This document shows, piece after piece, positions 3,792-47,365 of a stretch of 64,000 nt of DNA (positions are counted from its first letter, which is position 1; the number at the start of each line of letters is the position of its first letter). Source of the DNA: Rosa chinensis (lineage: Eukaryota; Streptophyta; Magnoliopsida; Rosales; Rosaceae); the NCBI RefSeq assembly GCF_002994745.2, contig NC_037092.1, positions 7,244,501 to 7,308,500 on the forward strand, written 5' to 3'. Position numbers and translations under genes: made by a program. Below the pieces are notes generated by a model. The model worked only from the letters and a program-made list of their open reading frames with translations. It had not been told where the DNA came from and did not search any database.

Positions 3792-4498
3792 GCACGATGG
3801 AATAATATCTGCTTCACTATAGCTTTGAAAGAGTTATGAAATATTGTTCGGAGGCTCTCTGCATCATATTATTTATGCATGCTTGTGGAAAAACACAAAA
3901 TAACAAATTGATTGAGAAAACCCTAACATGACCATAGGAGTCATGACGTTGAGGGTATAGGGTTGGACACCATGGCGCCATTTTTGGCCATGATTGCACT
4001 ATTCCAACGCCATTGGTTCTAGGGACCATATGTATTGTGTCAATACACCTCAATCAAGAGAGCATCCTCTTCATGATATTTTATGGAGTACCTGATCAAT
4101 GGTAATACATCGAGCTATAACAGACTTTAAATCTGGCGATGAAGATAGAATGCCGCAGATTTTTATTTAGAATAGTCTTTTAATTTCCAAGAATTATGTA
4201 ATGGCAATTATACCTTAATCAATAAAATGACTTATTGGATTATCTCTTTTCTTCTAGGCGTACTCAGTTAAGTATGATGTCTAGGAAAGTAATTGAGATT
4301 AGTGGTACTTAAGAGAGCTTTGCTCCACCGACATCTCTCTCTACTTCCCTGGTCATATTTAATTGGAATTACCGAACGAATTGAGTGACTACAATTTGTC
4401 TAATGTTTGATTTTTCTTTGGATTAGATTATGGTCACGAAACTTTGATGTAATCATTGGCTATTATTAATAAAGTATCGATTTATTTTATCTCATGTC
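3792..4498. other. Degenerate copia interior, no reading frame
   Basis: The expected place of the gag carboxyl end and protease. Only short frames with stops are present. It holds a CATGGCGCCA-type palindrome at about 3969, like those inside the pol linkers, and AATAAA at 4470. Confidence 0.4.
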
Positions 4499-7400: not shown

Positions 7401-8193
7401 TCTCATTCGCAGTGAACTTGTTAGCTAGATATAGCTCTGCGCCTACACGTCGCCATTGGATTGGTGTAAAGACAATCTTTCGATACCTAAGAGGTACGAT
7501 TGATATGGGCCTATTTTATCCCTACAGAGAGAAGGGGAATGACGGAAGAATGGGATCGGACCCCATTAGGCATGGAGCCACCGTCCACCATGACAAGGTG
7601 GCCGGCCATGTTGCCGCCAACGCCGTCATCACCACCAGGGGTGGCCGGCCTCACCCTATCCCCCTTCATCAAACGACAATGATGTCTTGATGGGTTTTGC
7701 TGATGCAGGGTACCTCTCTGACCCTCACAAAGGTCGCTCCCAAACGGGTTATGTCTTTACCATGGGAAGCACTGCGATATCTTGGAGGTCTACGAAACAG
7801 ACCCTTGTTGCTACTTCCTCAAATCATGCAGAGATTATTGCTCTACATGAAGCCGTACGTGAATGTATATGGCTAAGGTCTATAATTAGACATATCCGAG
7901 GAAGTTGTGGTTTGAAGTCTACCACAGATGAACCTACATGCATTTATGAGGATAATGCAGCTTATATTGAACAAATGAAGTTAGGTTTCATCAAGGGCGA
8001 CAACACCAAGCATATATCGCCTAAGTTCTTCTATAATCAGCAACAACAATCACTTCTAAAGATTGAAGTGAATCAAATCCGATCAGAGGATAATGTAGCG
8101 GACTTATTCACTAAGTCGCTACCTAAATCCACATTCGAGAAACATGTGAAGAGCATCGAATTGAGAAAGTTATCCGAAGTCCCACGATTGTAG
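4499..8193 (+). pseudogene. Copia pol: integrase, reverse transcriptase, RNase H; broken
   Basis: Residues numbered from ATG 4499. GAG-pre-integrase motif LWHDRLGHLG at ~73-82. The integrase HHCC zinc finger (~175-182) has tryptophan at 179 where cysteine is expected. The integrase triad is D210, D273 and E309 (NGLAEA). An in-frame TAA at 6446-6448 replaces what looks like a glutamate codon; the same frame then runs on through the reverse transcriptase, with YVDDMNLIG near 7040. Near 7540-7680 a GC-rich insert of about 140 bp flanked by AATGA shifts the frame, and the RNase H part (GFADAGYLSDPHKGRSQTGY, 7690 on) is in another frame to 8193. So there is one nonsense change, one frameshifting insertion and one lost zinc ligand. 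Confidence 0.85.
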
Positions 8194-9288: not shown

Positions 9289-12200
9289 CTAAACAAGAGG
9301 ATGGTTCAACACCACAACTCCTTCCGGAGCAGCATCCTTGAAAAACTTGTTTTTGATTTTGTTTAGAGTGGCTAGAGCCTCATGCATATTTATCCTCCCA
9401 TCTTGTGATTCGATGGAACAAGCTAGAGCTAATCTCATAATGGATGATAAACACTCCCTATTGTTCTCAAATTCACGATCCCCTTCTTCAATCCCAAGTA
9501 AGTTGGCATCCACGACATCAAGTAATGGTGAATTTGCAACCCATTGCTTCAAACTGATGTCCCCAAACATCTCATCTGTTGGCTTCTTTTTTGTGAATGT
9601 TTCCATCAGTACAATACCAAAACTGTAAACATTCCTTCTTCTAGTAACTATTCCTTCCATTCCATACTCTGCAACATACAAATGTGTAATTATTTTTTTC
9701 AAATATAATAAAAATTAAACGTTAATGTTCTCATAATGAAGGACAATACATGTAAAGTTGAATATAAACTAGCATTAGTTCTTTACCTGGGGCCATATAT
9801 CCAATTGTGGCTTGTGTGATGGTTCGGGTCATCGAATCTCTTCCACACAAGAGTTTTGCAATGCCAAAGTCAGCTACATGTGCACTCATATCCTTATCCA
9901 GAAGGATATTGCTGGGCTTCAAATCACAATGAACAATAGGTGTTCCATAGCCATGATTCCATGATGAAGGTATTCCAATGCCGATGCAACATCTATCATA
10001 ATACTCAACCTCTGCAGGATGTTCAAAGAAAAGTTCACAGAATACAACCACTTCTCAAGGCTCCCATTAGGCATGTAGTTCAGTACCACGGCTTTGAAAT
10101 CAGTTTGACTGCAGTAACTGATGATTTTGATAAGATTTCGATGACGAATGTTGCCTAGCATTTCACACTCAATGTAGAAACTCTTAAACGCCCCCTTCTA
10201 GCTATAAATTGAAAACCTTTATAGCCACATCTATCCCATCAGAAAATGTTACTTTATATACTGAGCCAAAACCACCACTGCCAAGTAAGTTGCTTTCATT
10301 AAATGTATTTGTTGCTCGAACCAGTTCGAGGTGCGAAACTCTTCTCTGTAGAAGTTGAGGGAACAATGTAATCTCTTTTGCAGCTTCCACATTCTTTCTT
10401 CGGCATAGTATCACTATCCAAATGAAGGTAGCTATGAACAATGCTGACAAGATCCCTGATATACTGGACTTCAAATGTGCTTCAAATGTACTATTATTGC
10501 ATGATGGGACAAGGAATCGAGATGCACCACAGAGTTCCCCGCTCGAAACAAATGATTGAGCAGAGAGGTTTTGGAAAGGTCCACCCGTTGGAATTTCTCC
10601 TTGGAGTTTGTTGAAAGACAAATTTAAAATTTTGAGATATTTGAGTGATTCTAGTGACTTTGGAATCAATCCAGACAGATTATTTCTGGATAAATCCAAA
10701 TTTTCCAAGCTGAGCGACTTACCAAGTGAATTAGGAATAAGGCCTTCAAAATTATTATTCTCCAAGGAGAGCATGACCAAGCTTTGTAGATTCCCAATGC
10801 TGCTCGGTATGCTACCGGATAAGTGGTTGTTTGATAAATCTATCTCTATGATAGCTTTCAGCTTACCAACATCTTCTGAGAGAGATCCACTTAGATTATT
10901 GGATGACAAGTATACATACAGGAGATCTGAAAGTCCCCACAAGTTAGTTGGTATTGTTGAATTCAATAAATTGGACCCTAAAGCTAGAGTTCTTAGTGCG
11001 GTGGCTAGATGACCCAAGCAAGAAGGTATAGAGCCAGAGAGCTGGTTACCATACAACCCTAACACAACAAGGTTTTTTAGTCGACAAAGTTCATCAGGGA
11101 TGTGTCCTTGAAAGTTGTTACCGCCCAAAGACAAACCTTGGAGATTTTTCAGAGTTCTTATTGAGGTTGGAATTAATCCACTTAATTTGTTGTTAAACAT
11201 GGATAAGCTCTAAAACCTAGAGAGAGAGAGAGAAAAACCCTAAGGTCGGCGACGTGGCCGAATTAGACCGCAAGATTGCTTCTCGTCCGGTGGCGACCTG
11301 GGCCTCTAGGCTGGCCTTTGGCCTCACCGACGCCATGCGGTCTGCTGCCTGACGGGGATGAATGGCTAGCTTTCAGGGCGCTTCTTTGAGGGGTATTTCT
11401 TGGGGCTTTGCAGGTTGGTCTTGGCTTCAGGTTTGGTGTGACATCTCTATGATGCGGTGGCTATGACGGATCGGGACTCGCTTTGCTGCTTCCTGGATCC
11501 ACTACTTTCGGGGAATGTTCTCTTTCTGCAGCGGCGTGGATCATAAGTGCTGGACTGGGGCGATATGTGGTGTTGCTTGGTGTGGCGGCACTGCTCCAAA
11601 GGTGATTGGGTCGTGGCGGTTGAATCGTGGAGGCGGATCATGGAGGTGCAGGAGTGGCATGGTCGGCGGAGCAAAGCTAGAACTGGTGACGCTGGTCAGC
11701 GTGTTTGGTGAGATGGCTGGGCTTGGACCCAGTCGGGCCTGTTGGGCTTTGGGTGGGCTTCTCTTTGGATTTGCCTTGCACTGATTATGGTGGGCTAGGT
11801 TTTTCTACCCAGGCCCATCTCTATGTTAATTTTGTCTAAGTACTTTATTTTCTACTATTATTTTCCTTGCTTGGGAACCCTAGGTTTGTATTACTCCCTA
11901 ATTTTGTTAGGGAACTACGCACTTTCGTGCCTCTAGCAAATCCTCTTGAGTAGTTACGACGGAGGATTCTCGAGACAAGGGCTTGGGAAGTTTTTGGTTC
12001 CCGGGTCTCCTTGCCTAGTACTTGATTTTGTGTCTTTACTACTTGCTTCTTAGTTCTCTCTAGTTGTACACCAATTGAGGTCTCTAGGCAACTAGGTTTA
12101 CTTTTCAAAAGAGAGGTTTTGTAGTGAGGATTTGATCTCTTGTATGTAGGCTCACAATAAGTGGGCGCATGTGTTAGCAGTGATGGTCACCTGTCCTTTG

Positions 12201-14793
12201 CCTGGTAGCTTATACCATGTATGATTTTGGTGTAAGACAGTATTCGATGTACGTGCCTTCTAGCCATGGATAAATGAATGAAATTATCTCCTTTTCTTAA
12301 AAAAAAAAACATGGATAAGACTATCAAGCCGCTCAAGTTGCCTATATCGTCAGGAATATTGTCTCTCATGTTGCAGCTGTATAGATAAACATTCTGAAGT
12401 GATGAAGAGAAATTTCTAATAGAAATAGGGAGGTTGGCATTTAATGGGTTTTTACTGAAGTCCAAGTGCTTCAAATTTTTTAGATTTGCCAAGCAAGAGA
12501 GAACATTTACTTCCGTAGTAGGAGTATCAAGAGTTAAATTATTCTCATCTAAGGAAAGCCGCTCAAGGTTTGTTAAGGCACACAGCGTGCTAGGAATAAA
12601 GCCTGAAAGAAAGTTTTCTTCCAATGATAGGGTCGTGAGCTGAGAAGCATTGGACATCGATTTGGGGATTACTCCCCTGAGTTTATTTTGTCCTAGGAGG
12701 AAATGTTGTAGGTTTGGAAGCCCAAGACCTGTGTTTGTTGGGAGGTTGCCTGAGAGCTGATTACTAGTTAGACCAATGGTCACTAATGTGGACTTGTTGA
12801 AGATTGTGGTTGGGATGTGACCATTCAGATTATTAAAACTGAGGTACAATAGTACTAAATTTGGAAGACGACCAATCTCATCTGGTATAGTACTTGCCCC
12901 AATAATATAATGAGTCAGTTACAAAAATCGACACTTTATTTTCAAATTAATTAGATGACATATATACAACTAATCTCATATAGGAATGATAAAACTAAAT
13001 GTTGAATTTTTTTGTTTTGTTTCGTATAAAGTAGTTAAGAAATAAAACGTGATGAATGGTACATGTACCTGTCAAATTGTTATCCATAATAATGGGAAAT
13101 TGATAAAACAATAAGTATATATTAAAACACTACACGATATATATGCATATGACCAGATAGTTTTTTCGCCAACATCATGTTCACAAGGGAAATTAATTGA
13201 ATGAAAAATAAAATTGTACACCTAGTTAGGGGGGCCTACCTGTGAAATTATTATCAAAAAGATACATCTCTTTCAACGTTGTTAAATTTCCAATTTCTCT
13301 CGGTATACTACCTGTTCATACATAAATTAACAAATAACTGGGACCAATGTTAAAGTGTAATGGTCATAATGATCGACCTGATTATAAATTCAAATAAGAG
13401 CCAGTTTGTACCTGATAGTCGGTTAGATCTCAAAGAAATTACTTGTAGTGCAGATAAGCTGAAGATGGTCGCTGGTATGGAACCTGAAAAGTTATTACCG
13501 TATAAATACAACTCTTGAAGTTTGGATAAGGCCCCCACCACTTATAAATCATGATGAATGGTACAAGTACCTGTCAAATTGTTTCCAGCAAGATAAACAT
13601 GTTGTAATTGGGTTGCGTTCCCAATATCTTTGGGTATGCTTCCAACTGAACTTGTTACTCTCCAATCTTAAATCAACAAGTTGTTTGCATTGCCAATATA
13701 TAGATGGAAGTGGACCTTTAAGCTGGTTATCACCGAAATTCAAAATTTGAATATGAGGAAGATTCTGGCACATATTGTCTGGAAGTCTACCCTTCAAGTT
13801 GTTTCCAAATAGAGTCAAAGTAAACAAAGAAGACATGTTGAAGACAACCATAGGAGCATTTCCTTCTAGGACATTGTCTTGCACATACAACTTCTCCAGT
13901 TGATCTAAAGCGCCGATCTCATTTGGAATTTCTGAAATAAAAAAAAAATCTCAAGTGAATATCAAAACGCTCCATGATATATGCATATGACTAGATAGTT
14001 TTTTCATCAACATGGTCTTCACGAGAGAAATTGATTGAAAGAAAAATCAAATTGTATACCTAATAAGACAGCATACCTATGAAATTATTATCATCAAGGT
14101 AGATCTCCTTCAATGTTGTTAAGTTTCCAATTTCTCTCGGTATACTACCTGTTAATATATAAATTAACAAATATCTGAGACTAATGTTAAAGTGTAATGG
14201 TCATAATGATATCAACATGTTTAAAACTCCAAATGAGAGCCAGTCTGTACCTGATAGTTGGTTACGCCTGAAATCAATTCGTCGCAGTGTAGATAAGTTG
14301 AAAATGGCCGTTGGTATGGAACCTGAAAAGTGATTACCTCTCAAAGTGAAGTTTTGAAGTTTGGATAAAGACCCGAACCACGACAGAATGGCTCCCATAA
14401 ATGAGTTGTTTCCAAAGTTGATGAATTTCAACCGGCACAGACGAGTCATTTCCTTAGGTAAATGGCCTTGAAAACTGTTATTTCTCAAGTCAACATTGAC
14501 AAGAAACGATAGGTTACCTAGCTGTGGAGAATAGTGCCTTCGAGACCAAAGTAGGAGAGGTTCAAGGCTGTGACTCGATGATGGTGTTTACCACAAGCAA
14601 CACCAACCCAGTTGCAAACAGGAGTGGTGATTGACCAGTTGGTCAAGATCAAGTTATGAGGATCACTGGTGATACGGGCTTTGAGAGCAAGAAGAGCATA
14701 TTTGTCTGTGGTGATGTTAGTTTGTGGTGCTGCAGTTAAGCAGCTAACCGCCATACAACAAGAGTAGACGAGGAAGAACCAAGTGCTCTTCAT
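9289..14793 (-). pseudogene. LRR receptor-like kinase pseudogene (subfamily XII-like)
   Basis: Order on the minus strand: signal peptide (MKSTWFFLVYSCC, ATG 14793), LRR N-cap with CNWVGVAC, LRRs, transmembrane segment and Ser/Thr kinase with HCDLKPSNILL, DFGIAKLL and GYMAP. Family members sense extracellular ligands such as microbial patterns. Exons read: 14251-14793; 14077-14148 (72 nt, one LRR); 13571-13931; ~13412-13541; 13240-13311 (72 nt); ~12897 onward to the kinase; last intron 9669-9786. Lesions: frameshift ~14528, extra base ~13646, collapsed intron 13541-13570, acceptor AG to AA near 12898, retroposon insertion 11208-12308, TAG at 10202-10204, extra G ~10195, frameshift ~9955. It cannot give a full receptor. 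The start was chosen because a TATA box sits 56 bases upstream. Confidence 0.85.
11208..12308 (+). mobile_element. LINE-like retroposon inserted in an LRR exon
   Basis: 1,101 bp ending in a poly-A run and flanked by the direct repeat ACATGGATAAG (11197-11207 and 12309-12319). The receptor frame is continuous if the insert and one repeat are removed. It begins with a purine-rich leader containing GAGAGAGAGAGA and AAAACCCTAAGG, and has no reverse transcriptase frame. Its 3' block (GTACGTGCCTTCT.GCCATGGATAA before poly-A) recurs at ~32660-32695, so both belong to one family. It is probably a deleted, non-autonomous LINE. Confidence 0.8.
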
Positions 14794-14848
14794 TGTGTAC
14801 GTAGGTGAATATGGTTGCGGGATTTGGATGTGCAAAATGTTTGGAGGA

Positions 14849-14856
14849 TATATATA
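14849..14856 (-). promoter_or_regulatory. TATA box of the LRR receptor pseudogene
   Basis: TATATATA read on the minus strand, 56 bases before the ATG at 14793. It excludes the longer in-frame start near 14940 as the main start. Confidence 0.45.
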
Positions 14857-14940
14857 GTACGTTGAGACTGGAAACCGAAGAAGAGGTCGAGGTCGAAGAC
14901 TTGCGAGAGACACCGGTGAGACTTGGTTAATGACTTCCAT

Positions 14941-15718
14941 TAATTTCTTGCAGCACCTGGCGGGAGTCCACCACTAAGAAAAGGTTAGGCTGGGTGCGTT
15001 TGTGAGTGATTAATGGATTTGGAAAAATAGATTTGGAAATCAACTATTGTATTCTTTGCGCCGTCACTATTCACACCAAAAGGAGACCTGAGCATTTTTT
15101 TGGTTCAAGAAGCGTGAATTACACATATTTGATGAGATGAAGATGTCAGACAAAAAAAAAAACGATTAGATGCAAACCCAAAGAAGCGTGAATTACACAT
15201 ATATCTATGACTGTAGAAAACGTTTTTCTACAAAGAAGAAGAATACATCATGTCAAGGGAAAAACACGAACCCTTACCCCATACAAAGAAAAACCAACAT
15301 TGAAGGGACTCCCTCCAAGAAGAAAGAAAAGCAAATAGACTCATGAAACCTAAAATTTGGCAAACCTAAACAGTCTCTTGTACAAAAAGAACATGCAAAT
15401 AGTGGAACTAAGTCCCACCAAATCATTTCTAATAGACCCTTTCTAATAAAGAAGTGTCAAAATTAGCTAACTTAATTACCTTCTCGGTTATAATTAATTA
15501 ACTAATTATCATATGTTATTTTATATGCATTGATAAGTTAGAAGATAAAGTATTTCGATCATTAAAATTTTTGTGATCCAATGAAGGTGAATTCATTCAT
15601 ACGGAAGAAAACGTTAAAAAAGTAGGATGAATAAGATATAAACAAAAGCATTAACAGACTTACTCCACTAACCACCATAAAATCTCCCATTGGTTGTCAT
15701 CATGATCCTGGGAAGTGC
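14941..15718. other. Spacer upstream of the receptor pseudogene
   Basis: AT-rich, no gene. The bases nearest 14940-15120 match the upstream flank of the second copy (21470-21700) in short blocks, so the duplication that made the pair included the upstream region. Confidence 0.4.
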
Positions 15719-19944: not shown

Positions 19945-21318
19945 ATTTGTTTTCTTTAAGATCCACCTGTTTTAACTGGGTTGCGTTCCCAATATTTTTG
20001 GGTATCCTTCCACTAAATTTGTTACGCCACAACGCTAAATCAACAAGGTATTTGTATTGTCAAAATATGGATGGAAGTAGACCTTCAAGCTGGTTAATTA
20101 TGACTGAAATACAACTCTTGAATATGAGAAAGATTTTGGCACAAAATGTCCGGAAGTCTACCCTTCAAGTTGTTTCCATGTAGAGTCAAAGTAATTAAGG
20201 AAGACATGTTGAAGAGAACAACATTTCCTTCTAGGGCATTTTCTTGCACATACAATGTCTCCAGTTTCTCTAGAGCACCAATCTCATTTGGAATTTCTGA
20301 AAGAAAGAAAGAAAGTAAATATCATAACACTGCATCATATATGTGCATACGATTAGCTAGTTTTTTCACCAACATCGTCTTCACGAGAGAAATTGATTGA
20401 AAGAAAAATAAAATTGTACACATAATCTAGGGTGCCTACCTATGAAATCATTATAACCAAGGTAGATCTCCTTCAACGCTGTTAAATATCTAATTTCTCT
20501 CGATATACTATCTGTTCACATAAAAATTAAGAAATAAATGAGATCAATGTTAAAGTGTAATGGCCATAATGATATTAACATGTTTAGAATTCCAAATAAG
20601 AGCCAATATGTACCTAATAGTTTTTTTTTTTCTTCTTTAACTAAAAGATGATCAAAGGATTTCACTCCCACCCCCATAGTGACTCGAACCCATGACTTCG
20701 TCATTACGTAGTGGGTGCTCTAACCACTGAGCTAACACAACTTTGTCATTAGGTAGTATGTACCTAATAGTTGGTTATGCCTGAAATCAATTATTCGCAG
20801 TGCAGATAAGTTGAAAATGGCTGCATGTATGGAACTTATAATTTATTACCGTACAAATACAACTCTTGAAGTTTGGATAAGGACCCAAATCATGCTGGAA
20901 ACATTCCTGTAAACTTGTTGTATCCCAAGCTAATAAGTTTCAACCGGCGCAGGCAAGCCAATTCTTGGGGTAAGAAACGGTGAAAGTTGTTATTTGTGAT
21001 GTCCAGATCCACAAGAAATGATAGGTTGCCTAACTTCGGAGGAATGGTGCATGCGAGACCAAAGTATGAGAGGTTCAAGGTTGCGGCTCTAAGGTGGCGT
21101 GCACCACAAGTAACGCCAACCCAATTGCAAATAGGAGTGGTGGTTGACCAATTGGTGAAGATCAAGTTACGAGGATCACTAGTGATACGGGCTTTGAGAG
21201 CAAGAAGAGCATATTGATATATGGTGATATTGGTCTGTGGTGCTGCCATAGTTAAGCAGGTAGCCGCCATACAACAAGAGTAGACAAGGAAGAACCAAGT
21301 GCTCTCCAGTCTCCATTG
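19945..21318 (-). pseudogene. Truncated second LRR receptor kinase pseudogene
   Basis: A paralog of the gene at 9289-14793, keeping only the first three exons: signal peptide and N-cap (STWFFLVYSCCMA, CNWVGVTC) with LRRs at 20773-21318, the 72-nt LRR exon at ~20447-20517, and the exon-3 homolog ~19945-20296. Kinase and transmembrane parts are absent. Lesions: the ATG is out of frame with the signal peptide because of a 7-bp insertion next to it (~21315), a TGA replaces tryptophan near 20890, a frame change follows, the exon-3 donor is altered, and a SINE sits at the exon-1 donor. The truncation lies just left of the solo LTR, but the junction shows no clear mechanism. Confidence 0.8.
20623..20756 (-). 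mobile_element. tRNA-derived SINE
   Basis: 134 bp. Read on the minus strand: a head with A-box TAGCTCAGTGGTTA (20734-20721), a B-box GGTTCGAGTC (20690-20681), a short body and a poly-A tail. Flanked by a 16-bp duplication TATGTACCTAATAGTT (20607-20622 and 20757-20772). The boxes are the internal RNA polymerase III promoter. The host site is the exon 1/intron 1 donor of the receptor pseudogene, so the donor is present in both copies of the duplication. Confidence 0.93.
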
Positions 21319-21465
21319 TATAGATGAATATGGTTGCAGTCTTGCAGATGATTTGGATGTGCAAAATGTGTGGAATATGCAGTCGTTGAGACAGTAAAAC
21401 CAAGAAGAGGTCGAGGTCGAAGAGTTACAGGAGACGCCGCCGGTAAGTATTAAGATTGCTTCCAT

Positions 21466-22261
21466 TAATTTCCTGCATCACTAATAAAGAGTTAAGTTGG
21501 GTGCGTGATTAAGGGGTGATTAAGAAGAAAATCTATTTAATATAAGAAAAAGAGATTTGGAAATTATCTTCATTTGTCTTGCGTGTTCCTTTCCAGCAAT
21601 ATTTAACTTCACAAGATGACCAAAGAGACTTGAGCTTCTTCTTTTTTTTGGTCAAGAAGCGAGTATTACGCATAAGTGATTAGATGAAGACGTCAGACCA
21701 TAAAAATAAAAAACAATTGATGAAGATCCATGACTGGCAAAGCCCAATCAACTCTTCATGACCAACCCACGGAGGGAAGTCTAAAAAATTTGGGCTGATC
21801 AGGGGCGTGGAGGCAACGACCCGCTAGGCCTATAGCTAAGGTCCGACCCTAAAACCCACATAATAGTTTCACTATTGAAAGTTTCTAATCATCGTCACAA
21901 CATAATTGTCAAGAAATCAATTAATTTAAAATCGTTAGTAATCTGTCATGTATGTTTATTATTATTTTTTTTTTCAGCAAACCTTGAGAACAGGAGATAA
22001 ATTTATTCCAAGAAAGAAGAACAAGATAAAAAATTAGAGCCTTAAAATGATACCAATGATAATTTCATGTATCAGGTAGCATTAATACATTAGGTGCACG
22101 TACAATTTTGTATTCTATTATTGAAAAATAAATAAATTACCTTCTATTATATTTTTTCAAATAAGTTATGTCTTCTATTATTCGCATAAACGCTAAATTA
22201 ACCTATGACTTTTTCTATGTATGCCAAACACATGTTGTCAAACACACCCTATCGTTTGCAA
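21466..22261. other. Spacer upstream of the second receptor pseudogene
   Basis: No gene. Includes poly-T and A-rich runs. Confidence 0.4.
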
Positions 22262-35588: not shown

Positions 35589-35678
35589 ATGATGTGGCAA
35601 ACTTTGAGACCATTAGATAATTTAGAGCATCAAAATTTAATGAACTTCATGTAAATTCACAACCTTCTAACTTTAGAG

Positions 35679-36603
35679 TAGAGGTGGCAAATGGGCCGGC
35701 CCGGCCCATTTTAAGCGGGTCTAGTCGTGCTTCGTGCCGTGCTTGGGCCGGCCCATTTATTATCGTGCCGGACTCGTGCCGACCCATTTACTTAAACATT
35801 AAGCCCGGCCCGGCCCATGGCCCGAGCCCATATCGTGCCTGGCCGTGCTCGTGCCGGATCAATAACTGGCTGTGCTCGTGCCTACCCATTATAAAGCACG
35901 ATTTTAAAATCTTAATTTGAACAAATAAAAATTAATTTTATTTAACTATTTAGAAAATTAAAATAAATTAAGTTATACAACGTTTTTCTTAATCTTAGCT
36001 TTTTAAGATTAGATTTCTAATAATTTTTTATATTCCACTATAAGAAAGAAAGAAAAAAAAAACTCAAAATATATTTTTTCAGTATATTATTGTGAGATTA
36101 ATCTTTATTAATATAATGAAGATTTAGTATATATTATTCTTTCCTTCATTCTATAGTTGTATTATTATGAGATTAGTCTTTATTAATAAACATATATTTA
36201 ATATTTAGAAAAAATACTTATATCAAAACGAGGATATAATGTTTTGTTTCATTATTTTGACAATATAAAAGAAAGATTGGTGGAATTGTCATGAGATTTT
36301 AAATAAAAATGTCTCATATTCAAATCTTATCATTGTAGTTTTTTAATATTTTTAAAAACAAAATGAAATTTTGTGTTTGTAACAGGCCGGCCCACAATAT
36401 GTCGTGCTCGGGCCGTGCCCGACCCATTACGGGCTAGGGCCGGGCCGAGCCAATGGGCCAATATTCTTAGGCCTAGCCCGACCCGTTATTCTAACGTGCT
36501 CGGGTCGTGCCGGACCACTAACGGGCTTGGGCCGTGCCGGGCCTCTTTTAAGCGTGTCGGGCCAGTGTCGTGCTCGTGCTTAGTGGCCCGTTTGCCACCT
36601 CTA
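35679..36603. mobile_element. Non-autonomous hAT element
   Basis: 925 bp with terminal inverted repeats TAGAGGTGGCAAATGGGCC / TAGAGGTGGCAAACGGGCC (one mismatch) and the 8-bp duplication CTTTAGAG at 35671-35678 and 36604-36611, the hAT signature. Both ends are rich in GGGCC and CGTGC words, the centre is AT-rich and has no transposase. Confidence 0.92.
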
Positions 36604-37758
36604 CTTTAGAGGAGTCGGATCTGTCTTTAGTATAGGAACAAAATGAAGGAAAATTAATAGTTGAGGCCTAAGTTTGAACAAAATGGAAAGTGAGTGGGAC
36701 TGCCCTTTAAAATTTCGCCTTAGGCCTCACATTGGGAAGGTCATACTCACACTCCAGAATTAACCCTGGATGCACTCAACACTATGCCAAAAAGGCCTTC
36801 AGACGACATAACTGTTCTGTCGTCTGAACGAACAAAAATGTGTCGTCTAGTACGGTGTCGTCTCTTAGGGGCATCAGACGACAGAAGTGTTCTGTCGTCT
36901 GATTTTTCAGACGACATAAAAAAAAAAAAGTCTTGTGTTGTCTGATGAGTTTTGCATTTTGGGAACATTGTGATCTGTATCTTTAAAAGCATTCAAACAA
37001 CAGTTTTGTATTGTCTGATAAACAAAACAACCACAGTATTTTTTAAATGCTATTGTGTGAAGCATATTTGCAAGACTTATTTGTGTGGTCTGAATGCCCT
37101 TAAATAAGAAATATGAACACTCATATGTAGTGTCTTCTCTCATACAACAACAATTAAAGGTTGTGCTAATTTACTTTAAACGACAATTATATGTGGTCGT
37201 AAAGAGTATAAGAGGACAATTAAGTGTCGTTCTAGGGTCCATACATACGACACTTAAGTGTTGTGTGAAAGGTCTTTTATTAGGTCTTTTATATTGTCTG
37301 TGATTGATTCCAACCACACTTATTTGTTGTTATTATATGCTTCAGCCAATACTTTCGTCTAACTTATGTTGTCGTTTTGCCCTTTAGACTACAATTTTAT
37401 GTCGTCCCAATGCCAAAAAGACAATAGACTTCTAATTGGTTTTTGTGTTGCTTTTGTACAGCTGCAACCACACATTAGTGTGCTTTTGTTGTAGTTTGCA
37501 ATTTGAGATAACACATGGTAGTAGTCCTTTGTTACAATTGGTATGCATGCATTTTGGAAATTAAAATTGCTCATTCATGAAACCATAAAATCCACATCCA
37601 AAATCATTCATTACAATTTCCATTAATCCACAATTGTCTCATGTACACAAACCTAATCATGAGCATCAGTTCAAAATGACCGATATATACTAATCTGGAA
37701 GTCCAAATGCTTAATAAAGGAAGAACTTCTACTAGACACAAGTCAATAAAGGAACTAG

Positions 37759-37880
37759 CTAGTTGTACTGCTGTACCAGTTTCACGATCTTATCATGAAT
37801 GGAATCACCCGAAGCATAGAAGTGGTCATAGAAAACTGAAGGTATTCCGGGGTGCGTGAGCATACATGCATAACCCTGCA
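37759..37880 (-). pseudogene. Captured alpha-amylase exon
   Basis: After an acceptor-like CTGCAG the frame reads GYACMLTHPGIPSVFYDHFY, then ASGDSIHDKIVKLVQQ and a stop at 37761-37759. This is the signature late in the catalytic barrel of plant GH13 alpha-amylase (usual form GYAYILTHPGIPSVFYDHF followed by DWG). The W of DWG is changed to S and the frame ends where the family continues with RK. A single exon inside the CACTA element. Confidence 0.75.
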
Positions 37881-38492
37881 GATATGCTTTGCCAGGACTC
37901 AAAATCCCAAACTTGATGCCAACCCATAACATATACTGTTGAGAATTCCAAACCTTAACAGCAAAAACATAAACTTGATTGCAGAAAGTGAGACAAACAT
38001 AGTAATAGCAAAAGCCAATATCAAAATGAAGCTAAAGACTCAATATTTACATAAAAATGTGGGGAACAATGAAAAGGTTTATTGAGACCAATAATCCTAA
38101 ACCAAATAATCGAATTCTTCCATATCTAATTCTAGTAGATTAAGAAATGAATTTGTTGCTAGTAGGTATAGTAATCTAGTATATGTGCTTACTCTAGAGT
38201 TTGTCTCAAAGCTGAAATAGGGTCACGGTGATGACTACCCCATAATTTAGAGGAAACAAAAATGTCCTCTCTTTTTATAGTCCCATCTTGAAACGTACGT
38301 CTCTGTTAAAGTGTTTATAAGGGCAGCCTCAGAACCATATATCTTGACTGTGCCAAAGTGCATGTAGCCCATCTGCATTGTACAGATCAATTATTTCAGA
38401 AATTTGTAGGTAATATTGAAAATCACATTGATCCGAGTTTTCATCAATTTCATCGACGACTTACCAACACATGCAAAAATTATAAAGATCAA

Positions 38493-38933
38493 TTACCTAC
38501 AAATAGAGAGAACAAAGCAGCAACAAGTTGCAAGGAACTAAATTTCTCTTTACCTTCTTATTTCTATTCTAAGAAAGATTAAGAATTAATATAATTGCTT
38601 TTCCAGCTAGCTACCTACTTGCAGATAGTTTAAGAGAGAAGGAAAAAGAAGCAATTAACAGAGACGTTTGGCAGCAATTCACACCATTGCAGGTATTATG
38701 GCTGCTACTGTTTTTACGTTGGACATTACCAGAAAGTAATCAACACCATTGCAGGTATTTAAATTTTCTGACATCCAAAATATAAGAGAACGTTAATTAC
38801 AGGTATTTACCTGAGCAGCCAAAGAGAGCATCAAGAAGACAGTCCTTGGAAATCTACCTACAAATAGAGAGAACAGAACAGCAAGAAGTTGCAATGAACT
38901 TAATTTATCTTTATCTTCTTATTTATATTCCAA
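38493..38933. repeat. Direct repeat pair of ~80 bp
   Basis: CTACAAATAGAGAGAACA and about 60 following bases (GCAA.AAGTTGCAA.GAACT..ATTT, then CTTCTTATTT) at 38497-38573 recur at 38858-38933. The ~360-base spacing includes a smaller repeat, ACACCATTGCAGGTATT, near 38678 and 38739. Lies inside the CACTA element. Confidence 0.7.
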
Positions 38934-39360
38934 ACATGCCAAAACTTTTGTTCAAATATCCTAAGCTATAGTACCAGACCCAAACTTCAGATTATACAAA
39001 TCTCTTAGCATGATCTAACAAATTTGAGCCAGCTTAGCCCCTGCCCTTCCCTTCCCAAGCCTTAAGCTTCCTTTCTACCCAAAACAAGAAAAAAAAGACA
39101 AAGACAAAACACACCAACAACAAAGAAGACAGCAGCAAATGCTGCAAATCTCGACTGAAGTCACTATAAATCAAAACCATCTCAAACCTGCATCCAGAAA
39201 CCCAAATTCAAACAGCACCAAAGAATCATAAATCGAAGAAATCAAAGAATCAGAAACTGCAAATCTCGACACAATGTATCCTCTCCAACCTCCAAAGAAT
39301 CAGAAATAGAAGAAATACTCAAATCCCTAACTGATCTACTTAAGCTTCCAAACAATCAGA

Positions 39361-39423
39361 TTCAAAGAGGCTATGGGCTGCCCTATATTCCACTCTAGCT
39401 CAGCAGCCCATAGCCTCTTTGAA
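39361..39423. repeat. Perfect 21-bp hairpin with 21-base loop
   Basis: Arms 39361-39381 (starting TTCAAAGAGGCTATGGGCTG) and 39403-39423 are exact reverse complements. The arm and loop lengths are those of a short foldback or a young small-RNA precursor. I do not recognise the arm as a known miRNA. It is inside the CACTA element, between the amylase and AXR1 pieces. Confidence 0.9.
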
Positions 39424-39856
39424 ACTCTTCAAAAACTTCACCCTATTCTCATATATAATTCCAGAAACTCAAATTCAAATAGCACAATGCCTACATAATT
39501 AGTAGAAAACAAAAATCACACATACTTAATTCATAGCTCTGGAAAAAGTAACGAAACAGATGCGAACTGCACGAGGAATCAAAAGAAACTATCTAACAAC
39601 AAGAACTCAATCAAAATGGCTGTCCAACATTTTAAAAACCAAACAACAAAGACCAATTTCAAAACAGAAGATGAAGGGAAAATACAAGTAGTTTGGAATC
39701 TATATGGATCCAATTGCCAAGCCCCGTCCCAATTAACTCTTTACAGTCTTCAAAATTTGAACGAAAGAAACAAATTCAGGAGCTCAAATAAGATCAAACC
39801 AACAATCAAACAGATCGAATACAAGTAAATGACACTATAAAACTCCACACACTTAC

Positions 39857-41722
39857 TTTGAGTTTTCTAGCATTCTTGTAGAAACTTATAACAGTTGCCT
39901 TTGAGTTGCTACTAGGATCTCTACTAATTCTCTTTAGAAGAGTCCTAACCCTTTGGTCAATACTAGAAAATCAGCCTCAGCCTTGGCTTGGTAGGTTTTC
40001 TGTAAAGCTACATAGTGCCTGCAAGAAAGTAGATAAAGCACACATTTCAACAAATTAGTTTTTAAAGCACAAAAGAGAAACATGAAATTCTGGGGATGTC
40101 GACTAACTCAGTTGAAGATGTCATATCTGGTACTGATCCCTCGAGGGGTGCCTCACCACCACCTTCATTTGCTAGGAATTCCTGTAAAGTGAAAATTTAT
40201 GATTATACAACTAAATAAATGAATAGTGGTATGGATTGTATAGAATTTGACTAGCTAAATACAAGCATTTGATTACTTGATAAAAAATATATATATATAA
40301 AAAGTAACTTTTGCAACCTTCATGCATCCAAAGAAAACGGCAGAAATCTAAGAGCCTTATTAAAGCGAAGACTTCTAGTCAGATTACTCAGGTGTTCCCT
40401 CCCTGCATGGACCACTCAATTAGACAACATGCTTCAACTCTGAGCATTTATTTCTGTATTTACAATGATCATGTCGGAAAACCGAGGACTAGAGCTAAAA
40501 ACTCTGTTTGCAAAAAATATGAGTTAAGCCATTAACACTAGGTTTTACTTTTTTTTCCTTTTTTTTAATCAATGCATCAAAGTTAAACTGCCTTACACTC
40601 ACAACTAAGAACACTGAACCATTTTGAAACTACAGTTTAGGGTTATCAATCAATTCAAAACTTACCATAAGGAAATCAGTTGGAGATTAAGGAAATCAAT
40701 TCAGAACTTATCATAAGGAAATCAGAGACTCTAGAAGATGTTATAAATGTTAAGTGATAAAAAACACTCTCACCAAGATAAACAGATCTAATTTATGCAC
40801 ACTATATCCAGTTGTCGCAGATTCAATCTTGGTTTCACAAATCTTCAATGCCGCCACCATGACCCAAAAGTCTGATTAACCGGAATGAACTTAAGAACGG
40901 CTGTCACTAATTATTTGTTGCAACTCTGGACCTGAGACATAAAGTAAGAAAAATCAACCACCTGCTCAATGGGGATTGATATTCACGCATGAGTATTTGA
41001 GGCTGAAACACTAGTTATGACGGCAAACTCCAAAGAAGTGTGTGCAAAACCATAAAGCCAATACCAACCCCAAAGGAGTGAGAATGTAAGCAATAATTGA
41101 CAAAGCGTGACACCGACACTGCATCTATGCAGGTGCAGTAATTGAGTGCAGTTTGTAGCTTAGTTAAACAAATACTAATTTTAGAATTTTTCCTGACATG
41201 AAGAAACAATGTCATTTCGAATTTTAGTGACAACTATATCCTATCTTGAAAATTTCCATTCGCAACAGCCTCTTCAACTAAAAACGTTCTCAAAATTCCA
41301 ACCAATGCTTGAATAACATATCCTCACTAATTCCTCAAGGAGTAAAGACTTTAAAGGAGTTCTCAATGCTTCACTGTAGTTATCTACATCATCTGCAGTC
41401 ATCCTAGTTTTGATAAGCTCCTTATAAATTCAAGAACACAGGAAGAAAAATCACGGTGCTGAACAGCAATAAAACGATTGTTCAACATAGTAATTAATAT
41501 ACAAATCAAGAAGGTAAACCTTGAACTCTTTTTTCTCTTCCCTAGTTGTTGGAAGTACACTACTAGGACTTTTTATCAGAAATGCAAAAGAGACTGACAT
41601 TGATAATGTCTCAGATAACAACATGAAAATAGCACTCTGTACCTTCTAAGCTCAGGCCATGGATTATTCAAACGAAGGTCATCCAGAAAATGTTCAGGCT
41701 TGGACTCAATCACAGTATGTTT
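39857..41722 (-). pseudogene. AXR1: Captured AXR1 gene segment (NEDD8-activating enzyme E1 regulatory subunit)
   Basis: Collinear exons on the minus strand: 41722-41643 (HTVIESKPEHFLDDLRLNNP, then WPELRR); ~41556-41520 (LPTTREEKKEFK); ~41430-41325 (LIKTRMTADDVDNYSEALR); ~40885-40835 (FWVMVAALK); 40181-40108 (EFLANEGGGEAPLEGSVPDM, TSSTE); 40018-39857 (HYVALQKTYQAKAEADFLV, then, after a frame slip, SFYKNARKLK). This is the middle-to-late part of AXR1, which with ECR1 activates NEDD8/RUB for cullin modification. Splice sites remain recognisable, but frame slips and missing flanking exons make it a non-functional copy. All of it lies inside the CACTA element. Confidence 0.82.
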
Positions 41723-42678
41723 CTGCACCCAGAAAACCATAGAGAAAATGAAGGACATGCCCATTTCATTTCATTTTCTTCTCTTTTATTTTGTCTTCAA
41801 TATCCCAGCAACCAAAGCTAGCAAGAAAAGCATCAAAAACCCAATAAAAACCAAATCGAATGACAACCCAGATCACATAAATCCCAGAAACATTCACCAA
41901 AGCCAACACCTTTTTCAAAAACAAAGCTTAAACAACCAGAACTAGCACCTGATCTAATTCGAGGACAGAGGGAGAGGGCTAGTGCTGGCAACCGTCCAGG
42001 AGAGATTGAGAGAGAGAGAGATGAAGAGTCACTAAGTGATTGACTTCGAATTCATGGAGAGACCAAGACAAGAGTCATTGAACCAAAGCCAGTCTATGAA
42101 ATCAAAACCTACTGACCTATCAAATCAAAATACAATTGTAATCTACATAACTAAGTTCTAATGGCCCAAACAAGACCTTCAAACTCAAACCCAGATCCGT
42201 ATAATCCCAAATAAGAGATGAGCTGCTGAAAATGAGACTTACAAAACCAATAGTCATCGAAGCATAGGTTAGCAGAGTCCATGAAGGATATACAAGAGGC
42301 TATCTGTCCTCCCAGATTGACCATGATCAAGAGGAATTGTATAATAACACCCATATTCTCTCCTGGAATCCCACTAGCACTGCAATTCCAAGCATCAAGC
42401 TACCAAAGTGAATAAAGAATTGTATGAAATTTGCCCAGAAACTTAAGATAACTTAGCAGCCTATTAATGCCACTGACCACTAAGCTCTCAACCTATGTAC
42501 TCAGCTAACACACAGACTTGCCAATCCGATATCATCAAAGTAAAATTAAAAATTTCACCCAAAGCTATAGAAGCATAACTGTGTCTAGCAATTTGTTCTA
42601 AAAGCAAACAAACGATGCAATATGAGTAGAAAACAGCTTGTACAATAAAAGAAAGAAAATCATCTAGTGTAAACATAC

Positions 42679-43080
42679 CTTTTAAAAGTGGGCCTGTTGA
42701 TTTGTGTTATCGACAAGATGAGCAGCCTTGCCAAAAAAGGTATGAACACTAGTGGCAATCACCATAGCTTCAATCTCTCCTTGTTTTCATGTAGACCCCA
42801 AATACACAATGTCACCAGAGCCTTTGATCACAGGAAGTGACTCACCGACAAGTGTAGACTGCAAAGACCAAATGCAAAAAATGAGACTAAAATCTAAATA
42901 GCTCCATTCAATCATATAATCTTGCGAAAATGTGATTGTTAAATCACCTGATCAATTTCAGTGGATCACCATCGAGGAGACAAGCATGTGCTGGAATAAT
43001 ATCCCCAAACTTAATGTTGATTATATGATTTATATCAGCAGGAACAAGAACGGAAGCATCCTCCTCAATCCACCTCCCAA
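42679..43080 (-). pseudogene. Captured plasma-membrane H+-ATPase segment
   Basis: Two exons: ~43080-42948 (GRWIEEDASVLVPADI, then FGDIIPAHACLLDGDPLKL) and 42858-42679 (STLVGESLPVIKGSGDIVYL, then [20 protein letters not shown]). They correspond to the actuator domain of type IIIA P-ATPases (AHA family), including the GES of the TGES loop, whose threonine is valine here. Stops: TGA in place of the cysteine in GSTCKQGE, and TAA near the end of the second exon. Inside the CACTA element, same strand as the AXR1 piece. Confidence 0.82.
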
Positions 43081-44561
43081 TCTGATACACGCACAAATTC
43101 AGAGAACTCAAGCCACCCAAGAACTGGGATATATTATTAACAATTTCATTAGCTTTAATAATTTCAATTTGGGTTTTATCAATTAGGAGATGAATTGGGT
43201 TTTAGAATACCTCTTTCGGTGGAGTGACCGGAGTGAATAACCCAACAATTTCGAACTGATACAAGACATATAATCATGAATCTTAAAAAGTTACAAACTG
43301 CAATTGAAGAAGAAATCAACATTAAATGGAAATCAAGTTATCACACCCATTTCTAACTACCCAATCAGTATCATTAGTTCATTACCTTAATTAAAATCAA
43401 CATCAAGATCAAAACTCAAATGGAAATCGACATCAACATCAAGACCAGATCAGTTAATCAGTAACATTATCTTTGTTAAAAACTTAAAATTACCATCAAG
43501 ATCAAAATATCAAATGGAAATCGTCAAATCAAACCCATTTCAACTTTACCCATTCAAAATCTAATTTCCCATCATAATTTCCCAACAAGATCAAATGGAA
43601 TTCAAAGTATCGAACCCAAGTTTACAGATTAGAAATTTAGAATTCAGAAACTCAGAGGAGAAGCAGAGGAGGAGCGGAGCTCGGAGAGGGAGTAAGAGAT
43701 AGTGAGATACCTAGAGCCTGGAGGAGGAGCTCGGAGACTGCAGAGGCGGACTGGCGGAGACGGATTGCTGGTTGTAGCCTTGCAGGTTGTTGTGTTTGGT
43801 GTTCCATATTCCTCGTTCAGGTCGGGACTCGGGAGTGCTCCAATTCTCCAACTGAGTTCAGCGGTGGGGCTTGAGTCCTACCCAGTCGGGGCTGAATCCG
43901 CCCCTGCTCTGTGATTTAGTTCTTGGGAAGTGAAAGACTTGTGGTGATGGACAGGTCCCCATCCCCAAATAGAAGAAAAACCTAATCGAAACTAAGAAGA
44001 AGAGGAAGAGACTAAGAAGAATAGAGAGAGCGAGAAGACAGAGGAGGGGGTGAGAATCAAGATCTGAGAGAGCTGAGTGAGAAGGAGAGAGGCTGGTTTT
44101 TGAGGTTTTCAATTTCGCGAGTTCTAGGTACAGCTGAGAGAGCTGATCGATCGAGTGAGAATTCGAAGGACAGAAAATGACTTGTATCAAAAGTTCAAAA
44201 CGCACAAGTCAATATAACCTAGAAAATTTTAAAACAAGCTCTACACTCGGACGACATTTAAATGTTGTCTGAATGTCACAACATTTTCTAGTCAACTAGA
44301 GCTTGGTTATTTGAGAGGGAAAAGTATTTGATCAAATTTTGGATATCCCTCCAAATTTGGGATAGGAAATCATCATCTATTACAACAACAAATATGTGTT
44401 GTCTGAAGGCTGGCCATTTTTTCAAATTGAACGGGTATGGTTTTAGCCTATATTCAGACAACATAACAAAAAATTATGTCGTCTGAAAAACTCAGACGAC
44501 ACAAAACGAAACTTATGTCGTCTGAAGTGTGTCGTCTGAAGGCTTTTTTGGCATAGTGCAA

Positions 44562-44817: not shown

Positions 44818-47365
44818 TTAAAGAGAAAGGGAAAGCTTGGTGCTAATAGTTTCTTGTTTGCTATTCATGTCCTCGAATTGATGATCTTTGTAATGTTGTG
44901 AAGTCTCTATAACTCCTTGCACAGTTTCATAATTTCCTTCTGCGTGACTAATCGTCTGATGATGCTGAGTCTCGTCATTGATCTCATTCCAAACTCTTTG
45001 GCTTTGCAGACCCAACTCCAAATCAGGCATCCATTCCTTGTACTTCAAAATTTTTTCCTTGTTCCACTGAGAAACATTTATCAGATCATTCAAGAACAGC
45101 CAATGATATGTATATATATATATATATCAAAATACTTTTTACATGATAGAAAATACATACCTCAAGCCTAAATGGCGGTTCGAATTCTTGTTTGTAGCTA
45201 CTTGAATTGCTATGACCTTCAAGGTTCCAACAACGTAGATCATGATCTGTTGGTCTGTTGCTAATCATGTGATGCATTATATCAGATTGGGATGAGCCGT
45301 TATGACTATTTGACCAATTGATATTGTTGGAAGCAAATCTTCTGGCCCTCCAGCTTTTGCTAATGCTTTGAAATGGAGGCCACCTCTTTTCCTCATGTAA
45401 TCGGCTAGGGTTTATGGGGGTGCTTGTATGATGCAAAGCTTTGTTCAAATTGTTGCCTTGTACGACTTCTTTCTTTGTCAGAGAACTTGACCTGTCATAT
45501 ACAACAGCATTAGAGGCAAGCATGTACATACAAATAGATCAGCTAGAATTAGGAAACTGGATTAATGCATATACCTCGAATCCAAGTTAGGTATGTGATC
45601 CCTTGATTCTCTTCCATCCGTGTAGTCGTAAGTTTTCTCATCAGATACTACTGTACATTCATAAAATAGAGTTGCATGATACTTAAAGAGAAAGCAAGTA
45701 AAGAGGCTTACTTCTTAGAATTGAAAATGAAAAATTAAGTAAAAACAATTAAAATATGGCCTTTAAAGTTCATATAGAATTCGAATCTGGAATTCAACTT
45801 TTTGATGGTATGTGTGTAATATTTTGTCCATTTTTTTTATTAGTTTTGTGCTTATGTCTAAAACTATGTCATTTTGAATAGAGAAAATTAGATATAAACC
45901 CAAAAATTCAATCTTCTATTAGAAAAAATCCAAATCACATTAATAAACCTTCTATATAGAGTGATTCATAAAAATAAGAGAAATAAAAAGAAAACCTTCC
46001 ATATAAACTGTATGCCTATAACCAATATTTTTCCTTATTTTCATGTATATCTAATTTGCCTTTTTACATTCTCTCAAATAATACATGTCTAATGTACCTA
46101 CTAAATAGAGAGTCTGCTAAAGATGCTCGAACAACTGTATAATATGTTATTAACCTATGTTTGCTTTCCATTCAAGTGTTTATAAGAAAAATATAACATA
46201 CCTTTTATATAGAAAAAACAGACCACAAAATAGAGAAAATCAGATATAAATCTCGACCTAGGTATTGATTACTAGAGCTTCAATCAAGCATCTAGTTCAT
46301 CAAGTGTATTTGTTTAGAGCTAATTGTGGCATATTAAGAAATTTTTGACAAAAACATGTTTTATTTTCTATGTCACTTAATGAGAATTTATTTATGTAAT
46401 CAACAGATTTGGGTGTATATTAAAAAAAAAAAAATCATGGATGGGTTTAATCTAATAGGTGTAATCAAATTTGAGTACAAAATGAAATACCCCTTTTGAA
46501 TATAAATAATGTGGTCTATACAAGAATAATTAGATATGTACTGAACTCCCTTTTTTAACTCTTGAACTCCAAAATGATGTCGTTTTTTACATAAATACAA
46601 AATCAACAATAAAAAGAACAGTATAGGAGTATATATGTAAACTCGAGGAATATGCGAGATCAAACTTTACCTTGACCATCCCTATCAAGCTTCTTACTTC
46701 GATACATCTGAAAAAGGATAATTCATGAATATTCGAAGACATTAGCTAGGAAAATGAAGGAAAAATTATCATTTTTATTATTTTGGACAAAAGGAAAAAA
46801 TTATCATAAGAATCACCTGCAAGTGACTCTTTACGTGGGAAATACTTAGTCCTCTCACATTCATTAGCTGAAGAACCAACTTGGGAGTTGCTCCTGTATA
46901 TGTATAACCACCAATAAGTAGAGTCAGAGCAGAAAAACCATGCAATAAGGAAGTTACGTTATCTTTCAAATCTGCAAACTTACTCTCATGCCCTCCCAGT
47001 AATTCCAAAGCATGCAAAAATGAAAGATGGAGTTGGGGTGTCCACCGCAGACGAGGTAGTTTGGATCGTACATATGGCCTTACTTTAACCCTAGAGCTAT
47101 TACTAATAGTAGCTGCATTACTATTAATGTTTCCCTGGGCTAGGGCTCTACATTCATCATTTCTAACTGTACTAAGTTCATTATCAGCCAGGTTAACGTT
47201 GGCATTGCTAATATCATTGTCGCTGTTATCGCTGGCTTCTTCATTTAAATCAAAGCATGAGCATTTCTGGGAAGAACCCACCGATATGTTTTCTGCTTGG
47301 TCCTCACTGATATTTTTGTCAGTCTTTTCTTTTTGATCACCAATTAACTCCAGCTCATTCATCAT
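44818..47365 (-). CDS. GARP-type MYB-like transcription factor with EAR motifs
   Basis: Exons 47365-46984, 46893-46817, 46707-46671, 45650-45575, 45491-45161 and 45066-44818, with phases that fit, giving 383 residues. The start is the first of two adjacent ATGs. A GARP DNA-binding domain at ~102-165 carries PRLRWTPQLHLSFLHALELL, then the ATPKLVLQLMNV and SHVKSHLQ blocks and MYRSKK, split by introns in the places usual for this family. Three repressor-like motifs: DLNEEA (39-44), DLELGL (316-321) and the terminal LSLSL (379-383). Relatives (the At1g14600/At2g40260 group, rice MOF1) act as nuclear repressors in development; the exact role here is inferred. A UTR intron upstream is likely. Confidence 0.87.

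Follow-up and report, generated by a model that had tools for sequence, protein, structure and literature searches.

A non-autonomous CACTA element of Rosa chinensis with fragments of three host genes, and relatives with an unbroken AXR1 site

In this work, a 64,000-nucleotide stretch of the Rosa chinensis genome (contig NC_037092.1, positions 7,244,501 to 7,308,500; the window) was analysed with respect to a CACTA transposon of 7,779 bp located at window positions 36780-44558. The element is a non-autonomous CACTA and carries DNA-level pieces of three host genes, alpha-amylase, AXR1 and plasma-membrane H+-ATPase, in a single orientation. We propose, with a probability of about 0.83, that it belongs to a non-autonomous Pack-CACTA family which is present in multiple copies and whose cargo was gathered stepwise, and that the AXR1 piece entered through a break inside the element. 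The confidence is slightly reduced because one copy has no exact target duplication and the ends of one compared locus (L068) are unproven. According to this proposal, a presumed CACTA transposase from elsewhere would excise the element by way of its CACTA ends and subterminal repeats, and a 3-bp duplication would arise on reinsertion. The cargo pieces would have been collected in succession, AXR1 being joined from an unlinked gene at a break within an existing element. The cargo would already have been broken before the subfamily amplified, and the element would be a genomic parasite with passengers, from which a spliced read-through transcript may arise.

Ends and classification of the element

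The terminal inverted repeats are located at 36780-36808 (plus strand, beginning CACTATGCC) and at 44530-44558 (minus strand), and they match at 28 of 29 positions. A total of 3,836 CACTA/CACTG end pairs with a spacing of 200-25,000 bp were scored within the window; the element pair had one mismatch in 29 and the runner-up nine, the chance expectation for pairs of such quality in the window being about 3e-9. Both flanks carry the target-site duplication CAA (36777-36779 and 44559-44561). The left subterminal array (36799-37409) consists of the 10-mer TCAGACGACA, its complement TGTCGTCTGA and variants, and the right array (44247-44539) of TCAGACGACA-like sites. Exact copies of the 10-mer or its complement were observed nine times in the element and not once in the remaining window. 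When up to two mismatches were allowed, 19 sites were counted in the left 640 bp (0.5 expected) and 8 in the right 320 bp (0.35 expected), while the element core contained 5 (5.6 expected), which is chance level. The CACTA-starting inverted repeats, the 3-bp duplication and the subterminal repeats, which stand in both direct and inverted orientation, place the element in the CACTA (En/Spm) superfamily. Furthermore, the host gene fragments inside CACTA ends and the multi-copy, mobile nature of the family place it among the Pack-CACTAs. No transposase domain was identified in 20 open reading frames (ORFs) of the element, ten per strand, the remaining and mostly shorter ORFs lying outside the test. 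A transposase of its own is a trait of autonomous CACTA members only, and a non-autonomous member needs none. A CREPT match in one plus-strand ORF of the element (E 0.001) was below threshold and was taken as chance. An initial annotation, made from the sequence of this DNA, had described near-perfect 29-bp CACTA ends, a 3-bp duplication, subterminal arrays and a transposase-free interior, and these descriptions were borne out, the last of them within the 20 ORFs tested.

Captured fragments and donor-type genes

All three fragments in the window copy lie on the minus strand. The largest is the AXR1 fragment of about 1.94 kb at 39817-41757, which comprises several exons with introns and was identified by a match in the PDB (human homologue APPBP1, E 1.5e-22) and by a gene of the same genome. 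The H+-ATPase fragment at 42650-43079 (about 430 bp) comprises two exon parts and one intron and matched AHA2 in the PDB (E 2e-37) and PF00122 in Pfam (63.2 bits, cut-off 28.1). The alpha-amylase piece, at about 37763-37884, is very short and represents part of a single exon. It lies partly within a head shared across the family, joins unrelated DNA at 37882-37884, and was identified by protein matches to alpha-amylase type 1 isozyme (PDB, E 5.1e-8) and barley alpha-amylase 2 (E 4e-7). The AXR1 and alpha-amylase pieces had no counterpart in Pfam. The three gene identities named in the initial annotation were thus recovered by protein matching; its picture of exon fragments with introns on one strand was correct as to strand and as to AXR1 and H+-ATPase, and needs correction for the amylase piece. 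The captured introns indicate a capture of DNA and not of cDNA. With boundaries placed by eye, 13 of the 15 splice sites in the AXR1 and H+-ATPase pieces were intact, and the two losses were one mutated donor and one deleted acceptor. The H+-ATPase piece is disturbed by a stop codon (TGA) and by 9 inserted nucleotides, and the AXR1 piece holds a deletion of donor-type bases and two frameshifts. The ORFs at 42154-42399 and 38250-38390 have a gene-like look but no Pfam match at the cut-off, and they were rejected as further gene fragments.

The genome searched, to which the window belongs, comprised 515 Mb, and its sequences C1-C7 measure 50-90 Mb each. A donor-type AXR1 gene is located at C2:75.36 Mb, and its exons are open across the captured part. 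It aligns to 39817-41757 as two pieces of 85% and 93% identity, and the element lacks about 251 bp of the gene, comprising the end of an intron and a partial exon. The AXR1 piece differs from this gene at 32 of 530 exon positions and at 171 of 1358 intron positions, an intron divergence of 12.6%. The donor-type H+-ATPase gene at C2:83.44 Mb is 86.8% identical over 42650-43079.

Copies in the genome and mobility

A search with the 123 bp at the left end of the element gave at least 40 full-length matches at 98% identity or more (40 scored of 495 candidates). A search with the AXR1 stretch (16 candidates) yielded 12 full-length element copies, including that of the window, and one copy split by about 7.7 kb; the other matches were the separate gene at C2:75.36 Mb and one short match. 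The search with the H+-ATPase stretch (24 candidates) yielded 12 element copies, of which 11 had an identity of at least 97% and one of 92%, with genes or partial copies below them. The whole H+-ATPase stretch was present in 11 of the 13 AXR1-bearing copies. Merely 56 bp of it were found in the copy at C3:22.71 Mb, and none was seen in the split copy at C5:28.87 Mb. Exact 3-bp target duplications were observed in 10 of the 11 copies readable at both ends (CAA, TTA, CCT, GAT, GCA, ACC, TTT, TTT, CTC and TTT). The divergence from the window copy over 38400-42500 was 0.4-0.9% in eight copies and 2.4-2.7% in three. The search for other copies proposed in the initial annotation thus returned 13 elements with the AXR1 piece at different sites of the same genome. 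The annotation had also named two results that would refute it, namely fragments at the same spot in related genomes without CACTA ends, and a failure of the protein matches to amylase, AXR1 and AHA. Neither was observed: within this one genome the pieces lie in 13 elements at different sites, and all three protein matches were obtained.

Entry of the AXR1 piece

Three loci without AXR1 (L066, L067 and L068), taken from five candidates with a single hairpin arm, were compared with the window copy. In all three, the sequence that runs to 39814 in the window joins directly what comes after AXR1 in the window. The unbroken site of a relative reads AAACAGA followed immediately by GCCCATTTC. The window copy has at the same site AAACAGA, two foreign bases, the AXR1 piece, one foreign base and then GCCCATTTC with five extra bases. 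No element base was lost at this 1.94-kb insertion. L067 has a right CACTA end, and L066 adjoins a listed family head; another locus, L070, had no match to any part of the element. Three unbroken sites without loss of element sequence point to entry of AXR1 by repair of a break inside the element, which would have used or joined DNA of an unlinked gene.

The best surviving alternative is that all captures, AXR1 included, followed the published Pack-CACTA route, in which neighbouring elements fuse and the intervening host DNA becomes cargo. As this model predicts (PMC8903248), the ends of the family are conserved and the interiors differ, and the H+-ATPase side and the switches of left cargo could have such an origin. 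On the other hand, the AXR1 flanks are adjacent in three relatives with no base lost, so fusion would need two base-exact deletion endpoints. A hybrid of two truncated elements around the captured DNA was not observed at the AXR1 piece, where the unbroken site is base-exact in 3/3 loci, and the core of the element has no excess of TCAGACGACA-like sites. We regard fusion as the origin of every piece as improbable.

Several points weigh against the preferred reading of stepwise gathering with AXR1 entry at an internal break. For L068, no element end is visible within the stretch compared, which leaves two AXR1-free loci tied to ends. The AXR1-free state was assumed to be ancestral, and a precise loss of AXR1 may formally have occurred instead. 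On the H+-ATPase side the insertion is not clean, about 1.87 kb of the window facing 135 bp in the relative, so one mechanism may not fit all captures. The copy at C6:25.70 Mb is without an exact 3-bp duplication: its left flank reads AAT and its right flank GAA, although GAAT is present at either end. The source of the moving transposase is a matter of inference. The donor-type genes differ by 7-15% from the pieces, and the true donors may have been close paralogues of them. Lastly, no amylase donor was found, the search having given element copies and repeats (40 scored of 121 candidates).

Family structure and probable stepwise gathering of the cargo

The element is built from parts that recur in relatives with other cargo. 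The family head (36780-37775) is common to elements of other cargo, and the sharing stops between 37698 and 37884 depending on cargo type. An interior part at 39028-39814 (39028-39363 and 39378-39814) is common to AXR1-free elements. The part at 41759-42082, which includes a minus-strand stretch rich in C and T, continues position 39814 directly in the three AXR1-free loci. The tail (43957-44558) is again common to elements of other cargo. Of 33 heads examined, 13 run on into left cargo of the window type, and 20 diverge between 37698 and 37884 into eight other cargoes, two of which have about 170 bp in common past the divergence point. The outermost head was unmatched in two of these 20 relatives (L049 and L052). 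One relative carries NADPH-cytochrome P450 reductase (PDB, E 7.5e-17), and another head type is followed by a piece of receptor-like cytoplasmic kinase (PDB, E 1.5e-11; the Pfam kinase match was below cut-off). A sister element at C5:46.2 Mb (L048, L069) has the head and, from 42947 onward, the H+-ATPase side in common with the window copy, including the same odd insertion, and has a different interior. The amylase piece lies partly in the common head, the H+-ATPase piece occurs in some AXR1-free elements, and AXR1 is confined to a subfamily; judging from these comparisons, the cargo was gathered in steps.

Some further matches in the relatives were set aside. Cargo that by eye resembled a chloride channel and a MAPKKK (both in the sister at C5:46.2 Mb) and CtpA was unconfirmed (Voltage_CLC, E 0.03) and was left uncounted, as was a weak match to leucine-rich repeats (LRR). 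In addition, two loci at C4:19697788 (96%) and C4:19784682 (94%) match the stretch of an internal hairpin and are not among the AXR1 matches; these are possible further AXR1-free members. Five other loci match solely from within this hairpin onward, and it may have formed by an inverted duplication in the present lineage.

State of the cargo

The lesions of the cargo are common to the copies. The AXR1 deletion and both frameshifts were present in 12 of 12 aligned copies, and the H+-ATPase stop and insertion in all 11 copies whose sequence spans them (copy L ends short). Among nine close copies, variable sites amounted to 23/831 in exons and 133/5239 in the rest (Fisher p 0.72), i.e., no selection on the cargo was seen. 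From the common lesions and from exon variation like that of the rest, the cargo is, as far as its sequence tells, a set of mobile pseudogene passengers with no sign of being kept for protein. A protein from the captured frames appears unlikely because the checked stops and frameshifts are common to all copies readable there.

The same data bear on a possible function of the element as a chimeric gene, in which a spliced transcript started from the right end or from a GARP-like neighbour would give a new protein or RNA. The single orientation of the cargo, the 13 of 15 AXR1 and H+-ATPase splice sites intact by eye, the position of the element 259 bp behind the stop of a same-strand MYB/GARP-like gene, and a right end with a CT-rich stretch common across the family would all agree with such a function. 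However, the stops and frameshifts are common to copies and exon divergence is not below that of the rest, which makes a functional gene very unlikely.

The internal hairpin is located at 39358-39426 on the minus strand. It is miRNA-like, with 24-bp arms, and folds strongly (-51 kcal/mol, z -7.4). It was rejected as a functional hairpin, having a strong fold but no special conservation, and its Rfam matches were below cut-off. Four 15-letter strings from its arms had no match in literature text. The least probable alternative is that the cargo acts through small RNAs on the AXR1, amylase and H+-ATPase genes, perhaps aided by this hairpin, which folds alike in 12 of 12 copies but lies outside the gene pieces, belongs to no Rfam family at the cut-off and is equalled or exceeded in conservation by 676 of 3,659 windows of hairpin size, the introns of the donor-type gene being, moreover, 12.6% diverged.

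Cargo orientation and genomic setting

Besides the three window fragments, both pieces identified in other cargoes (P450 reductase and kinase) lie on the minus strand. It should be noted that pieces were sought on the minus strand first, and that two ORF domain tests of the relatives' cargo took minus ORFs only. The A/T skew was used as a proxy for the sense strand, the sense skews of the donor-type genes being -0.142 and -0.134. The skew of the cargo agreed in sign at all 20 loci and in all eight cargo types, the P450 reductase type being weak (0.03-0.04); the corresponding counts were 15 of 30 for flanks and 19 of 39 for other windows. One sign in eight cargo types has a chance of about 1 in 128 if the types are independent. 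Pfam by itself does not separate the strands: besides H+-ATPase it gave only sub-threshold matches on both, namely Pkinase, LRR, NAD_binding_1 and Voltage_CLC for minus ORFs and CcmH and CREPT among 25 plus ORFs. The consistent cargo orientation across the family is thus suggestive only. A wider proposition would be that the family captures fragments of unlinked genes by internal break repair, keeps one orientation and has a conserved leader-like right end, its interiors turning into series of host exons that can be read in a single direction. We hold this as a tentative and rather doubtful proposition.

A distance of 259 bp separates the element from the stop codon (44818-44820) of the neighbouring MYB/GARP-like gene, whose GARP assignment is tentative and whose Pfam MYB match was below cut-off. 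This gene lies upstream on the same strand, so read-through would enter the cargo in sense. Elsewhere in the window, a small hAT-like transposon (35679-36603) with the ends TAGAGGTGGCAAA and TTTGCCACCTCTA and an 8-bp duplication CTTTAGAG (35671-36611) lies 176 bp before the CACTA element. The coding region of a Copia-type retrotransposon, in several frame pieces with integrase and reverse transcriptase domains, was found at 4448-8193. Pieces of LRR receptor-like genes in several ORFs are located on the minus strand at 9289-14973 and 20890-21477, with LRR domains confirmed in one.

Relation to known systems and significance

Tgm-Express1 of the soybean wp allele has five gene fragments in 5.7 kb, with chimeric transcripts proven (PMC1947982), and the view of the initial annotation that three host genes in one element are unusual can therefore not be maintained. 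Like Tgm-Express1, the Rosa chinensis element has CACTA ends and several unrelated gene fragments with exons and introns usable in one transcriptional direction (PMC1947982). Unlike Tgm-Express1, which is inserted in an intron of an expressed gene, it has three identified fragments in 7.8 kb and lies downstream of a gene, chimeric transcripts being a possibility; moreover, AXR1-free relatives are visible for it. The conserved ends, variable host interior, multi-locus cargo and multiple copies are shared with the Pack-CACTA and Pack-TYPE elements of Arabidopsis, maize and rice (PMC8903248), and in maize Pack-TYPE elements often contain several loci, Pack-CACTAs most (PMC8903248). For capture by Arabidopsis Pack-CACTAs, fusion of neighbouring elements was proposed (PMC8903248, PMC13317346), whereas the AXR1 piece here looks like a fragment of an unlinked gene inserted at an internal break. 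In this respect the element resembles the gap-filling captures (filler DNA) of animal Pack-TIR elements, in which host DNA enters inside the element with short insertions or microhomology at the breakpoints (PMC8277862). However, in 56.9% of those captures the parental copy is no more than 15 kb away (PMC8277862), while the donor-type gene here is unlinked and the element is a plant CACTA.

The matches listed for the end sequence, for Pack-CACTA and for Rosa chinensis CACTA contained no literature on this element family. For a 9-mer of the end sequence, none of the listed matches in literature text concerned transposons by title and none had the 13-mer. The end pattern was absent from viral contigs in one scan. 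CACTA elements carrying gene fragments are already known, and the value of the present one lies in the unbroken AXR1 site and a possible orientation rule. Filled and unbroken versions of one element stretch, along with donor-type genes, are present in a single genome, and the junctions can be read directly. A 2026 review describes the fusion of neighbours and states that for unlinked genes there may be an alternative mechanism which is yet to be discovered (PMC13317346). How DNA transposons acquire pieces of unlinked genes is the question on which the unbroken AXR1 site bears. If the orientation rule were true family-wide, it would tie capture, or the survival of captures, to transcription.

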